The notes beneath the pieces were generated by a model, which was not told the origin of the DNA, searched no databases, and saw only the letters and a list, made by a program, of their open reading frames with translations. Made by a program: the position numbers and the translations under genes. From an uncultured delta proteobacterium (lineage in GTDB: Bacteria; Desulfobacterota; Desulfobulbia; Desulfobulbales; Desulfurivibrionaceae): a stretch of DNA of 64,000 nucleotides. Positions 5,629-9,381 of this stretch are shown piece after piece. The stretch is taken from the NCBI GenBank assembly GCA_903869265.1, contig CAIPYE010000014.1, forward strand, positions 372,001-436,000, read 5' to 3'. The first letter of the stretch is position 1. Every line of letters starts with the position of its first letter.

Positions 5629-7485
5629 ATGAACAGCATCGTCGAGAAAGTCACCGACCGGATCATCAACCGCAGCCTGGCCCATCGTGAAAGCTATCTG
5701 CGCCATATGGAGCACGCCAGGGTGGCCGGACCGTTTCGCCACCATTTGCCCAGCAGCAATCTGGCCCATGGCCTGGCGGTTTGCCAGGGCGGAGAATGCC
5801 AAACCCTGCGCGGCGGGTTGGCCCCCAATATCGGGATTATCACCTCGTACAACGACATGCTCTCAGCCCACCACACCTACGAGCACTACCCGGCCATGAT
5901 CAAGAAGGCAGTGGCCGCAGCGGGCGGCACGGCCCAGGTGGCCGCAGGAGTCCCCGCCATGTGCGACGGTGTCACGCAGGGGGAGCCGGGCATGGATTTG
6001 AGCCTGATCAGCCGGGACGTCATCGCCATGGCCACGGTGATCGGGTTGTCGCACAACGTGTTCGACGGCGCCCTGCTCCTAGGGATCTGCGACAAGATCA
6101 TGCCCGGTCTCTTGATGGGGGGGTTGCAGTTCGGGCATCTGCCCATGATCCTGGTGCCGGGCGGGCCCATGCGCTCCGGGCTTCCCAACCGGGAAAAGGC
6201 CCAGGCCAGGGAGCAGTTTGTCCAGGGCAAGATCAGCAAGGAGGAGATGCTAGGGGTGGAGTGCGCCTCCTACCACGGAAACGGGACCTGCACCTTCTAC
6301 GGCACGGCCAACAGCAACCAGTTGATCGCCGAGATCATGGGGTTGCACCTGCCCGGCGCCTCCTTTGTCAATCCGGACGACCCGCTGCGCGAGGCGCTGA
6401 CCAATGCGGCCTCGGCCAGGGTCTGCGAGCTGACCCATCTGGGCGGCAACTATACCCCCATCGGGAAGGTGGTGAGTGAACGCTCCGTGGTCAACGGTAT
6501 CGTGGGCCTTTTGGCCACGGGCGGTTCCACCAACCAGACCATGCATCTGGTTGCCATTGCCAGGGCCGCAGGCATCCGCATCAACTGGGACGATTTTTCC
6601 GAACTCTCCGAGGCGGTGCCGATGCTGGTGCGGATTTATCCCAACGGACCCGGCGATATCAACAGCTTTCAGCAGGCAGGCGGCATGGCGGTGCTGATCG
6701 GTGAATTGCTGGCTGGCGGATTTCTGCACAACGAGGTGATGACCGTGGCCGGGGAGGGGTTGGAGCGATACACCCAGCGTCCCACTCTGGTGGCTGCTAA
6801 GGCCCAATGGTCCGATGGTCCTGGGCACTCGCTGGAGCCCGAGGTTATTGCTTCGGTGTCCCAGCCGTTTTCCCCCACCGGCGGACTCAAGGTGCTGGAC
6901 GGCAATCTCGGAAGGGCGGTGATCAAGGTCTCCTCCCTGGCAAACGGCGCGGCGACCTGCATCGAGGCCCCGGCCATGGTTTTCCATACCCAGGCCGGAC
7001 TGGAAGAGGCCTTCCGGGCGGGCAAACTGGACCGCGATCTCGTGGCGGTCATCCGCTTTCAGGGTCCGCAGGCCACGGGCATGCCCGAGCTGCACAAGCT
7101 GATCACCCCGCTGGCCGTGGTTATGGGCCGGGGATACCGGGTGGCCATGGTCACCGACGGCAGGCTCTCCGGGGCGTCGGGCAAGGTGTCGGCTGCCATC
7201 CATGTGACCCCGGAGGCCTTGTGCGGCGGCTTGCTGGCCAAGGTGCAGGATGGGGATCTGATCCGGATCGATGTGGGGGCTGGGAGCCTGGAGTTGCTGG
7301 TGGATGCGGCGGAGCTTGCCAGGCGGGAGTATGCCGAGGCTGAGCTCGGGGAGCAGCGGTACGGGGTGGGGAGGCAGATATTTGCCGCCCTGCGCAGTGA
7401 TCTGTTGGGGGCCGAGGAAGGGGCGAGTTCGTTGTTCACCTATGTGAATGAGAAATGTAAGGTGAATTTTTCGACAGAGACGTAG
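5629..7485 (+). CDS. edd: Phosphogluconate dehydratase (6-phosphogluconate to KDPG)
   Basis: 618 aa, close to the family norm of about 605. ATG 5629 sits behind AAGGAG. Belongs to the IlvD/Edd family; the segments MCDGVTQGEPG, NGTCTFYGTANSNQ and TGGSTNQTMH are present and supply the [4Fe-4S] cysteines and the substrate site. GRLSGASGK near the C-terminus is the second family signature. It converts 6-phosphogluconate to 2-keto-3-deoxy-6-phosphogluconate, the committed Entner-Doudoroff step; Edd rather than DHAD is clear from the length and the company of pgl and eda. The iron-sulfur cluster makes it oxygen-sensitive, fitting an anaerobe. Its partner eda lies 1.2 kb downstream, separated by an inserted gene cassette and a small membrane protein. 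Confidence 0.96.
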   Translation: MNSIVEKVTDRIINRSLAHRESYLRHMEHARVAGPFRHHLPSSNLAHGLAVCQGGECQTLRGGLAPNIGIITSYNDMLSAHHTYEHYPAMIKKAVAAAGGTAQVAAGVPAMCDGVTQGEPGMDLSLISRDVIAMATVIGLSHNVFDGALLLGICDKIMPGLLMGGLQFGHLPMILVPGGPMRSGLPNREKAQAREQFVQGKISKEEMLGVECASYHGNGTCTFYGTANSNQLIAEIMGLHLPGASFVNPDDPLREALTNAASARVCELTHLGGNYTPIGKVVSERSVVNGIVGLLATGGSTNQTMHLVAIARAAGIRINWDDFSELSEAVPMLVRIYPNGPGDINSFQQAGGMAVLIGELLAGGFLHNEVMTVAGEGLERYTQRPTLVAAKAQWSDGPGHSLEPEVIASVSQPFSPTGGLKVLDGNLGRAVIKVSSLANGAATCIEAPAMVFHTQAGLEEAFRAGKLDRDLVAVIRFQGPQATGMPELHKLITPLAVVMGRGYRVAMVTDGRLSGASGKVSAAIHVTPEALCGGLLAKVQDGDLIRIDVGAGSLELLVDAAELARREYAEAELGEQRYGVGRQIFAALRSDLLGAEEGASSLFTYVNEKCKVNFSTET

Positions 7486-7535
7486 TCTGATGATGGATAT
7501 CCCTGTTTTTTTAGCATTGACCAGACAACCAATAG

Positions 7536-8324
7536 TTAGGCGGTGTATACGCAAATGGAATTCCGTTTAGATCGTCCCCGTACAAATCAATACCCAACCG
7601 AGGCAATCCTCGACGAACTGCGCCGGGTCGCCGCTGTATTCGAAAACCGCAGGTTCACACGCCACGAATTTGACGCCGAATCCAAATACTGCAAGGGCTC
7701 AGTGGTTCTCGCGAGATTTGGTTCTTGGCAAGCAGCTCTTGATGCTACGGGCCTTGAATTGGCGGCTCCGGTTAAGAAAGATCGATCTTTTATTTCAAAC
7801 GAAGAACTGTTTTTGGAGTTGGGTCGAGTTTGGCGCCTCATTGGACACCGACCATCGAAAGATGAATGGGATCATTCAGAACCACGCTATTCATACACTA
7901 CTTACAAAACGCGCTTCGGAGGCTGGGTCAACGCTTGCGCGGCATTTATTGAGCACACCTCAGAATCTGCTAATCCGTTGGCCGTAGGTGTTGTTTCAAC
8001 GCAGCTTCCACCAATATCCAAATCCACCGTCACGCCTATCGATGCTTCCGAAAAACGCGGCATTCCAATGAAGCTTCGGTATCAGGTCCTCATGCGAGAT
8101 TGCTTTAAATGTGTCAGTTGCGGGCGAAGTCCGGTCACACATGTTGGTGTTGTTCTGCACATTGACCATATCACTCCGTTTTCAAAAGGTGGCAAGACTG
8201 TGCGAGAGAATCTGCGCTCTCTTTGTCAGGACTGTAATTGGGGTAAAGGCGGTGATCATGAACCACAGCCTAACCTCGCGCTCAACAAGGGCGCGCCGAC
8301 AAGCGGCGCGATTTAATTCAAACG
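7536..8324 (+). mobile_element. Single integron-type gene cassette inserted downstream of edd
   Basis: The left edge carries a core site GTTAGGC (7535-7541). The right edge is an attC-like hairpin starting with GCCTAAC (8268-8274) and ending TTCAAACG at 8324, followed by ATGGGC. Circularising 7536-8324 joins TTCAAACG to TTAGGC and rebuilds GTTAGGC, exactly complementary to GCCTAAC. That is the structure of an excised integron cassette. The one gene inside starts 7 bases from the left edge and runs into the attC, as is typical. Removing the cassette leaves a GAT at the join, matching the degenerate GWT consensus of secondary integron sites. No integron integrase gene is visible in this window, so this is a solitary cassette. 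Confidence 0.82.
7543..8316 (+). CDS. HNH endonuclease with homing-endonuclease-associated repeats (cassette gene)
   Basis: 257 aa from GTG 7543, or 253 aa from ATG 7555; no clear ribosome-binding site is seen for either. The N-terminal half has two repeats of about 60 residues (each ending RFGSWQAAL or RFGGWVNAC), the HNH-associated repeat found in homing endonucleases and thought to bind DNA. The C-terminus is a zinc-ribbon HNH nuclease: CFKCVSCG, HIDHITPFSKGG, then RSLCQDCN. All catalytic His/Asn positions look intact. Codon usage is visibly more AT-rich than the flanking zwf-pgl-edd-eda genes, consistent with transfer. It sits inside an integron-type cassette, so it may be a defence or selfish nuclease rather than part of sugar metabolism. 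Confidence 0.85.
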   Translation: MYTQMEFRLDRPRTNQYPTEAILDELRRVAAVFENRRFTRHEFDAESKYCKGSVVLARFGSWQAALDATGLELAAPVKKDRSFISNEELFLELGRVWRLIGHRPSKDEWDHSEPRYSYTTYKTRFGGWVNACAAFIEHTSESANPLAVGVVSTQLPPISKSTVTPIDASEKRGIPMKLRYQVLMRDCFKCVSCGRSPVTHVGVVLHIDHITPFSKGGKTVRENLRSLCQDCNWGKGGDHEPQPNLALNKGAPTSGAI

Positions 8325-8330
8325 ATGGGC
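8268..8330 (+). other. attC (59-base-element-like) recombination site of the cassette
   Basis: GCCTAAC (8268-8274) is the outer left box. An inner perfect 7-base hairpin CGCGCCG / CGGCGCG (8292-8298 and 8304-8310, loop ACAAG) forms the core, followed by TTTAATTCAAACG. The outer right box in place is GATGGGC (8324-8330), imperfect because its last six bases belong to the target; the cassette's own half, TTAGGC, is now at 7536-7541. The stop codon of the HNH gene (8314-8316) lies inside the site. Confidence 0.8.
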
Positions 8331-8423
8331 ATAGAATAATCCGGAATAATCAGGGACACTCCCCGTTTTTTGACCGGGGCGGGGCGGCACACCTCTGCGG
8401 TTAGATGCCGAAGGAAGGAGACG

Positions 8424-8666
8424 ATGAACATCGAAGTCATCCAAAATTTTCTTTTGTGGTGTACGGCCATCAACTATGGAGTATTGCTGGTGTGGTTTCT
8501 GGTCTTCGTGTTCGCGCATGATTGGATTCAGCGCATCCACGGCAAATGGTTTCATCTGTCCCGTGACCAGTTTGACGCCGTTCACTACGCCGGGATGAGC
8601 ATATATAAAATAGGAATCATTCTGTTCAATCTGGTGCCTTTTGTCGTTCTGTCTCTCCTCTGCTGA
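8424..8666 (+). CDS. Small membrane protein, DUF6868-like
   Basis: 80 aa from ATG 8424 behind a strong AAGGAAGGAG site. Two membrane helices (about residues 8-32 and 58-78) flank a conserved-looking loop with HDWIQRIH, KWFHLS and FDAVHYAGM. This pattern matches the DUF6868 family as I remember it; the function is unknown. It lies between the integron cassette and eda. Before the cassette arrived it would have been the direct downstream neighbour of edd, so it may be a native member of the sugar block. Confidence 0.7.
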   Translation: MNIEVIQNFLLWCTAINYGVLLVWFLVFVFAHDWIQRIHGKWFHLSRDQFDAVHYAGMSIYKIGIILFNLVPFVVLSLLC

Positions 8667-8730
8667 GGGGAACATCACAGGGACGTCTTAACATTTCACC
8701 GGTGCGACGCGTGTTGCGAGGGAATCAGGA

Positions 8731-9381
8731 ATGGCGCTGACAAGAAACTGGAAGATGGAGCCTGCCGAGGTTTTTGCCCAGGGACCGGTGGTGCCGGTCA
8801 TGGTGATCAAGGATCTCGCCCATGCGGTGCCCTTGGCCCGTGCGCTGGTGGCTGGCGGGATCAGGGTGTTGGAGATTACCCTGCGGACCCCTGTTGCTGT
8901 TGAGGCTATTCGGGAGATTGCCCGTGCGGTGCCGGAGGCGGTGGTGGGGGCTGGGACCGTGACCACGGCGGAGGATCTTGCGGCGGTGAGCGAGGTCGGG
9001 GCGGTTTTTGCCATCAGCCCAGGGCTAACCCCGGAGCTGCTGGACGCTGCCAACCAAGGGGATATTGCCCTGATCCCTGGCATTGCCACGATTTCCGAAC
9101 TGATGACCGGGTTGCGCCGGGGGTATGATCATTTCAAGTTTTTTCCCGCCGAAGCGGCGGGGGGCATCCCCATGCTCAAGGCCATTGCCGGGCCGTTTCC
9201 CAAGGTGGTTTTCTGCCCGACTGGCGGAATTGGTGTGGAGAATTATCGCGACTATCTTGCCTTGGGCAATGTGGCCTGTGTGGGTGGTTCTTGGGTGGCG
9301 CCTGCTGAGGCGGTGGCCCGGGGGGATTGGGAGCTTATCACTCAACTTGCCCGTGATGCAGTTCTGGGCGCTGGGAAATAG
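8731..9381 (+). CDS. eda: KDPG/KHG aldolase
   Basis: 216 aa, the normal length. Schiff-base lysine K136 lies in HFKFFPAE, the general acid/base E48 in [15 protein letters not shown] and CPTGGI complete the phosphate-binding signatures. It cleaves 2-keto-3-deoxy-6-phosphogluconate into pyruvate and glyceraldehyde-3-phosphate, closing the Entner-Doudoroff pathway begun by zwf, pgl and edd. ATG 8731 is preceded by AATCAGGA. The GAP produced feeds the gap-pgk genes near 53 kb. Downstream is a repeat with a strong GC hairpin that could end transcription. Confidence 0.95.

Follow-up and report, generated by a model that had tools for sequence, protein, structure and literature searches.

A lone integron cassette between edd and eda and the probable dispersal of attI docking sites in its genus

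Introduction

How a single gene cassette came to lie between edd and eda, within a block of Entner-Doudoroff genes, is the question raised by an insert in the 64,000-nucleotide stretch of DNA analyzed here (the window), which comes from an uncultured member of the Desulfurivibrionaceae. Integrons are described as one platform consisting of an integrase gene (intI), one attI site, and an array of which the first cassettes are expressed. A first-pass annotation, made from the letters of the window, had recognized the insert as a solitary integron cassette and had attributed it to integrase action outside an integron, at a secondary site with the GWT consensus, splitting a metabolic operon. We have examined the insert, the same locus in related genomes, and similar loci elsewhere in the genus. 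The genus set comprises 17 genomes, the window's own (G000) included, and most of the relatives are metagenome assemblies.

Boundaries of the Insert

The insert is 789 bp long, at positions 7536 to 8324, and contains one sense open reading frame (ORF); its boundaries were set by the G|TT crossover convention (Table 1). The left end reads G7535|TTAGGC. In the right part, GCCTAAC (8268-8274) is followed by the hairpin CGCGCCG...CGGCGCG (8292-8310) and by TTCAAACG up to G8324, after which the sequence continues with ATGGGC, so that the right junction reads GATGGGC as against GTTRRRY. The R' box is completed by the cassette's own TTAGGC (7536-7541), and G+TTAGGC is exactly complementary to the R'' box GCCTAAC. 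Complementarity of the boxes alone is not rare, because four exact GTTRRRY...RYYYAAC pairs at the cassette-like spacing of 300-2000 bp occur in the 64 kb, both strands counted; among these four, only the pair of the insert has a TCAARCG box 45-75 bases past R''.

Table 1. Features of the edd-eda block around the insert (window coordinates)
Feature	Position	Strand	Evidence
edd, 6-phosphogluconate dehydratase, upstream neighbor	5629..7485	+	Pfam ILVD_EDD_N and ILV_EDD_C
Putative remnant of attI 3' end, ATTGACCAGACAACCAATAG, last base the crossover G	7516..7535	+	16/20 identity to G010/G001 attI
Integron cassette, 789 bp, between G7535|T7536 and G8324|A8325	7536..8324	+	Sequence; box complementarity; G006 edd-eda spacer without the insert
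Cassette gene, HNH endonuclease with homing-endonuclease-associated repeats	7555..8316	+	Pfam HNH_repeat, HNH
attC, with R'' GCCTAAC at 8268-8274, apparently decayed L boxes, R' core G at 8324	8268..8324	+	Covariance model, folds
DUF6868 gene	8424..8666	+	Pfam DUF6868 1.7e-34
eda, KDPG aldolase, downstream end of block	8731..9381	+	Pfam Aldolase 1.8e-76

A promoter scan of 7400-8800 found none, the average for shuffled sequence being 1.1, and two terminator-like sites were found in the same interval, one of them the attC hairpin itself. The sequence GTTAGATGCC at 8400-8409, 24 bases ahead of the DUF6868 ATG, resembles a cassette start and is also present in G013; no attC was found behind the DUF6868 gene.

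The attC Site Appears to Be Decayed

An attC covariance model was built from 13 congeneric attC sites, with the window sequence left out of the training set. Application of an attC model to 8268-8330 had been proposed as a check, and that interval does rank first in the window, but weakly, with 12.9 bits and an E value of 0.49 (runner-up, 11.7 bits). Genus attC sites outside the training set reach 54.7 bits, far above this score, and the attC of the insert was missing from the hits at E ≤ 0.5 when the model was run on the whole genome. The description of the inner hairpin and TTCAAACG as canonical holds in part: with the cassette start put back, the R boxes pair in 7 of 7 positions, but the inner L boxes are unpaired and the fold barely improves on shuffled sequence (top strand, z −1.88 with 12 of 200 shuffles equally good; bottom strand, z −1.40 with 18 of 200). 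Because of the low model score, the unpaired L boxes, and this weak fold, we read the attC as decayed. An Rfam search returned a single match, at chance level (E 0.62), and the rebuilt attC used as a BLAST query against plasmids gave only partial matches, also at chance level.

The Cassette Gene Belongs to a Family That Travels in Cassettes

The product of the cassette gene matches Pfam HNH_repeat (8.8e-22) and HNH (8.7e-11) and gives a weak PADLOC match to a type II restriction enzyme (1.4e-5). Its ATG lies 19 bases past the junction. The last codons of the gene are attC DNA, since the stop codon (8314-8316) falls inside the attC, and the protein has a C-terminal extension, its relatives stopping shortly past the HNH motif. 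A match at E ≤ 1e-6 was found in 93 of the 395 phylum genomes searched, in most cases confined to the HNH domain; near-full-length relatives (E < 1e-34) were found in six of these 395 genomes besides the window's own. In three of the six, an attC lies 4, 13, or 32 bp 3' of the stop codon; the HNH family thus travels in cassettes. The full-length relatives share 35-39% identity with the window gene and are therefore not the same cassette. Among plasmid records, 49 contain HNH matches, all below 60% identity, the best being from Leptospira weilii (34.7%). Searches with peptide patterns found no relatives of the protein in collections of genome contigs and viral contigs, and no solved structure matched its sequence at E ≤ 0.01. 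The identification of a solitary integron cassette inside the edd-eda block is thus borne out by the exact outer boxes, by the attI-like left end described below, and by the cassette-borne relatives of the HNH gene.

The Left Junction Retains a Probable attI Remnant

The 20 bases to the left of the junction match, at 16 of 20 positions, the 3' end of an attI that adjoins intI in G001 and G010 and precedes G|TTAG, an attI being defined as the sequence beside intI that receives cassettes. This length of comparison was chosen after looking at the sequences; at that length, no equally good place exists among the 127,960 positions of the window on both strands. The match is not extendable leftward, 16 places scoring as high over 26 bases, and the junction carries only these last 20 bases of an attI, not a full site with L and R boxes and direct repeats. 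A search of the 17 genus genomes for the attI-end pattern with up to three mismatches found six places and none with forward or reverse control patterns. They are beside intI (G010, G001), behind the lon protease gene (G001, G004), behind edd (G013), and in the window, the last not being an independent match, since the positions at which the window differs had been relaxed in the pattern. A match to TTCAAGCGTTAGG in contig C11 was set aside, its stretch having no cassette visible by eye.

Longer attI copies are present at the same locus in two relatives. Just behind edd, the edd-eda spacers of G013 and G005 match an 88-base attI query over 84 bp at 87% identity and over 57 bp at 91%, respectively, both without intI, and a tblastn search for an intI remnant adjoining the edd copies found none beyond the overlap with attI itself. 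The word ATTGA occurs in the window, in attI, and in the G013 edd spacer, and a version with a single change occurs in that of G006; a deletion between such shared words could therefore have removed the 5' part of an attI.

The edd-eda Spacer Is a Recurrent Insertion Spot

An edd ortholog with 87-94% identity is encoded in 13 of 16 congeners, making 14 of 17 genomes with the window's own. Where edd and eda lie on one fetched stretch (11 genus genomes), the spacer measures 75 bp in G006 and at least 595 bp in the other 10, the length in G011 having been worked out from tblastn coordinates. The cargo of the spacer differs between genomes, and with such lengths in 10 of 11 genomes the spacer is a recurrent insertion spot; to speak of a metabolic operon split by the cassette is too strong. 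A DUF6868 gene is found behind edd also in G013, G004, G016, and G012. The spacer of G003 contains a different cassette, which starts CAATG|TTAGGC, has an R'' box GCCTAAC, carries an attC of 20.4 bits (E 9.4e-4), ends 12 bp before eda, and encodes a protein that by eye resembles an ACR3 arsenite transporter. In G015, an attC of 17.1 bits (E 0.0069) lies just before eda. Of the 14 genomes with edd, five (G000, G003, G005, G013, and G015) accordingly show integron traces in the spacer; in the other nine, neither attI nor attC was found in the spacer stretch read. Non-cassette cargo also enters the spacer in relatives, for example, a gene pair that by eye is antitoxin-like.

A relative with the predicted empty site, in which the edd side is joined directly to ATGGGC, was looked for as the first-pass annotation had suggested, and none was seen. 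The 75-bp spacer of G006 does not contain the predicted junction, and positions 8324-8400 share no 14-mer with 17 other spacer stretches.

These comparisons bear on whether the cassette entered at a secondary (attG) site, in this case any G-AT-GGGC that the spacer happened to offer. It is established that integration takes place at attG sites (Loot 2024, as cited in PMC12444791, seen in excerpt), and the same excerpt describes such sites as broadly distributed. With GWTMW or GNT as the secondary-site consensus (excerpt of PMC4618277), the rebuilt target G|ATGGGC fits partly, GAT agreeing with GWT and the following GG not agreeing with MW, and the shortness of the attI-like sequence at the junction also speaks for a secondary site. 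However, those bases match the end of a congener's attI, longer attI copies occupy the same spacer in two congeners, and repeated insertion in one spacer across the genus is unexpected from scattered single events. We consider insertion at an attG site unlikely, and the first-pass proposal of a GWT secondary site is probably wrong. A displaced attI is the most likely target, because the remnant matches the congener attI end and G013 and G005 carry copies in the same spacer.

Integron Integrases Are Encoded by Some Congeners

Integron integrases scoring over the NCBIfam TIGR02249 cut-off are encoded in 9 of 16 congeners. The window's genome, 99.2% complete so that absence is not proven, encodes none over this cut-off; its partial integrase matches are like those in all 14 control genomes. 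Since a complete integron requires an intI, adjoining the array or elsewhere in the genome, none was found there. The integron integrase genes at G007:C10:86427-87356 and G015:C9:330562-331491 each contain one in-frame TGA and are perhaps pseudogenes.

attI-Type Elements Likely Mark Docking Sites Across the Genus

At E ≤ 0.5, the attC model finds matches in all 17 genus genomes, many of them far from any intI. The genome of G008, with a main contig of 2.80 Mb, has no integrase match at E ≤ 1e-30 and contains nine attC-model matches. The window's genome has 13 distinct places at this threshold, 11 of which were inspected. As a control, 13 genomes of the family or order from outside the genus without intI (E ≤ 1e-30) gave a total of six hits at E ≤ 1e-4, with G021 accounting for four, and the window's genome alone has eight places.

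Several attC-bearing cassettes are preceded by an element of ~220 bp (element A) that ends GAGCTAGCTCGATAATATTATTG|TT. A DNA search with element A lacking the TT found it, whole or in part, in 13 of 17 genus genomes, and it also matched in 2 of 41 other genomes of the family or order. Twenty-seven search rows reach its 3' end; 26 were read, together with G002:C136, whose row stopped short, and the row left unread was G002:C122, at a contig start. In 26 of the 27 copies with a read 3' end, the element is followed by TT, and in 25 by G|TT. No intI was found near these 27 copies in the stretches fetched. The tie between element A and intI comes from one place, G015:C9, where the first 66 bp of the element, all that is visible before the contig end, lie 277 bp from the intI with one in-frame TGA; in G010:C139, a partial match adjoins an integrase remnant. 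From its position and from what follows it, we infer that element A is an attI.

By their upstream flanks, the 27 copies can be sorted into six groups, and 29 pairs match there at 78-96% identity over 56-608 bp. Past the junction, a single pair shares sequence within 900 bp, starting 583/639 bp on. This pair (L255/L264) has 1.3 kb in common from that point, which may be flanking sequence or a mobile element present in both.

At site I, the inserts give way to the right flank at +488 and +1605 in the two copies of G006, at +2197 in G005, and at +2663 in G008. All four inserts end at G|TTATGTTTACAA (G|TTATGT), with attC-model hits ending at the right boundary in three and a sequence that looks attC-like by eye in the fourth; the double occurrence in G006 may reflect a strain mixture. 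In both G008 and G002, the flank of site III reappears past attC ends at G|TTCYACACATGAAT. At site II, the right flank begins again at +30 in the window's genome but not until +1884 in G006, where no attC marks the boundary; the short interval is suggestive of a docking site that stands empty in the former genome. In groups IV and V, the fetched stretches contain no return of the right flank, and in group VI the return is limited to a 118-bp match. Seventeen copies were found through the attI search, not through attC, and have at least 1 kb downstream; in 11 of them, an attC hit at E ≤ 0.5 follows on the same strand. The two opposite-strand hits coincide with the same palindromic places, and since the fetched stretches extend less far upstream than downstream, a lack of attC upstream carries little weight.

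A second attI-like family in the window's genome (L125, L130, L132) ends GATAATATTAATG|TT and precedes solitary cassettes, and two of these three units share sequence past the attC. Elsewhere in that genome, a near-perfect inverted repeat (L129 2419-2480; G000:C15:316318-316379) matches the attC model on both strands, with 35.6 and 31.8 bits, and may be a terminator-like hairpin instead of an attC.

Sites Behind lon and the Possibility of a Relic Integron

Arrays were located with a loose attC scanner. In G001:C5 (L088 2399-5437), an attI of the edd type without intI lies directly behind the lon protease gene and is followed by four attC sites scoring 54.7, 54.4, 25.7, and 23.3 bits. In G004:C136 (L089 3760-4834), an attI without intI is again directly behind lon, with a different first cassette. 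Taking a CALIN as at least two attC sites with no intI, the lon site of G001 is one and the edd site, where a single attC was found, is not. Motifs AACAACGTCCCC and GGGGACGTTGTTGAT, in opposite orientation, adjoin some attI-cassette units (L089 3720-3760 and 4830-4860; the edd spacers of G013, G005, and G015) and are perhaps repeats that aided the spread of these units, or bound them. By eye, AACAACGTCCCC and GGGGACGTTGTT next to some units at lon and edd might be terminal repeats.

The lon copies bear on whether the edd site is the relic of a complete integron or CALIN, with attI in its original place and intI deleted. In Xanthomonas, CALINs are known to occupy conserved loci (excerpt of PMC12444791), and the lon copy in G001 stays close in sequence to the intI-adjoining attI as far as the start of intI, as would be expected of a relic. 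Against this stand the tblastn result at the edd copies given above and the number of sites per genome, each of which would need its own loss of intI; unlike flanks at six groups of sites around one common 220-bp element argue for the spread of attI itself. We regard a relic as quite unlikely. It is very improbable that the HNH gene arrived on some other small mobile element or by homologous exchange with chance attC-like ends: although the spacer takes non-cassette cargo too and the attC model score is low, the boxes, the attI remnant, the cassette-borne HNH relatives, and the traces in the spacers of four congeners would then all be chance.

Cargo of the Docking Sites

One cargo ORF was chosen at each of 36 sites, namely the longest in the sense direction with a start no more than 250 bases from the junction, the choice at L270 being doubtful. 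Pfam, applied to 30 of the 36, assigned families to 12, which include FRG, SIR2-like, TIR, DUF4062, DUF4435 with AAA, trypsin-like, and flavodoxin-like proteins. The window HNH gene and nine of the 36 cargo ORFs picked as likely were submitted to PADLOC, and the outcome is not a rate because the nine were picked by hand. The first gene behind element A in G002:C89 (L258 489-2054) encodes a PARIS-like AriAB fusion (4e-202). The TIR cargo protein matched PDC-S66 (5.6e-40) and ThsB (9.1e-27), the FRG cargo matched PDC-S15 (1.8e-9), and the SIR2 cargo had a match at 1.8e-8. Matches for L257, L254, and L135 were weak or partial, and PADLOC gave none for L142 and L133.

Discussion

By its boxes and by the company it keeps, the insert is a cassette, although its attC folds little better than shuffled sequence; it was probably not inserted at an attG site and is part of neither a complete integron nor a CALIN at edd. 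We find it quite probable that an integrase acting in trans placed this integron cassette at a lone attI in the edd-eda spacer. After that event, the 5' part of the attI would have been deleted, possibly between the ATTGA words of the edd spacer and of attI, leaving 20 bases; the attC would then have decayed, in a genome that has, or already had, no integrase. The cassette would now be fixed, because the attC appears decayed and no integrase scores over the cut-off. The HNH gene, which has no promoter of its own, would be read from the edd operon by presumed read-through. The edd-eda spacer would be one of many chromosomal docking sites, that is, attI copies without intI at fixed places, in which cassettes are exchanged.

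Somewhat less firmly, we think it likely that the genus runs a distributed integron. It would work like an integron with scattered attI sites, and in place of one array beside intI it would consist of many attI without intI at fixed places by housekeeping genes such as edd and lon. Single cassettes, several with phage-defense genes, would be exchanged there by an integrase that acts in trans and is frequently missing.

The insert resembles a cassette in an attI in its promoterless ORF beginning 19 bases past G|TT, its complementary 7-base outer boxes, its attC-like hairpin, and the attI end ahead of it; it differs in that here no integrase scores over the cut-off, the attI is cut to 20 bases, the L boxes are decayed, and the right boundary is GAT. 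The nearest published pattern that we met is that of CALINs at seven conserved loci in Xanthomonas (excerpt of PMC12444791), which likewise are cassettes without intI at loci conserved between species. In contrast, the sites described here usually hold single cassettes and have an attI or attI-like repeat at each left end, and the excerpt of that paper makes no mention of attI for CALINs. With attG insertions, the insert has in common that it is a lone cassette outside an integron, whereas the docking sites of this genus share an attI-type sequence and are used repeatedly. Fragments of attI outside their native place are also known as the delta-attI cassettes of class 1 and 2 integrons (excerpt of PMC12901181), and the delta-attI2 core AATAAAATG|TTRRRY given there resembles AATAAATATG|TT in this genus. 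However, delta-attI replaces the attC of a cassette inside an integron, whereas here attI stands alone in the chromosome. The open-licence literature in PubMed Central contained nothing on dispersed, multiple, orphan, or additional attI.

If attI sites are dispersed in this way, single cassettes could be expressed from many chromosomal promoters and retained after the loss of intI, and the sites would offer natural before-and-after pairs for the study of cassette exchange. A lone cassette in a metabolic operon should prompt a search for attI copies before it is called a random secondary-site insertion. Since their cargo includes genes that resemble known phage-defense systems, the docking sites may be places in which to seek defense genes.
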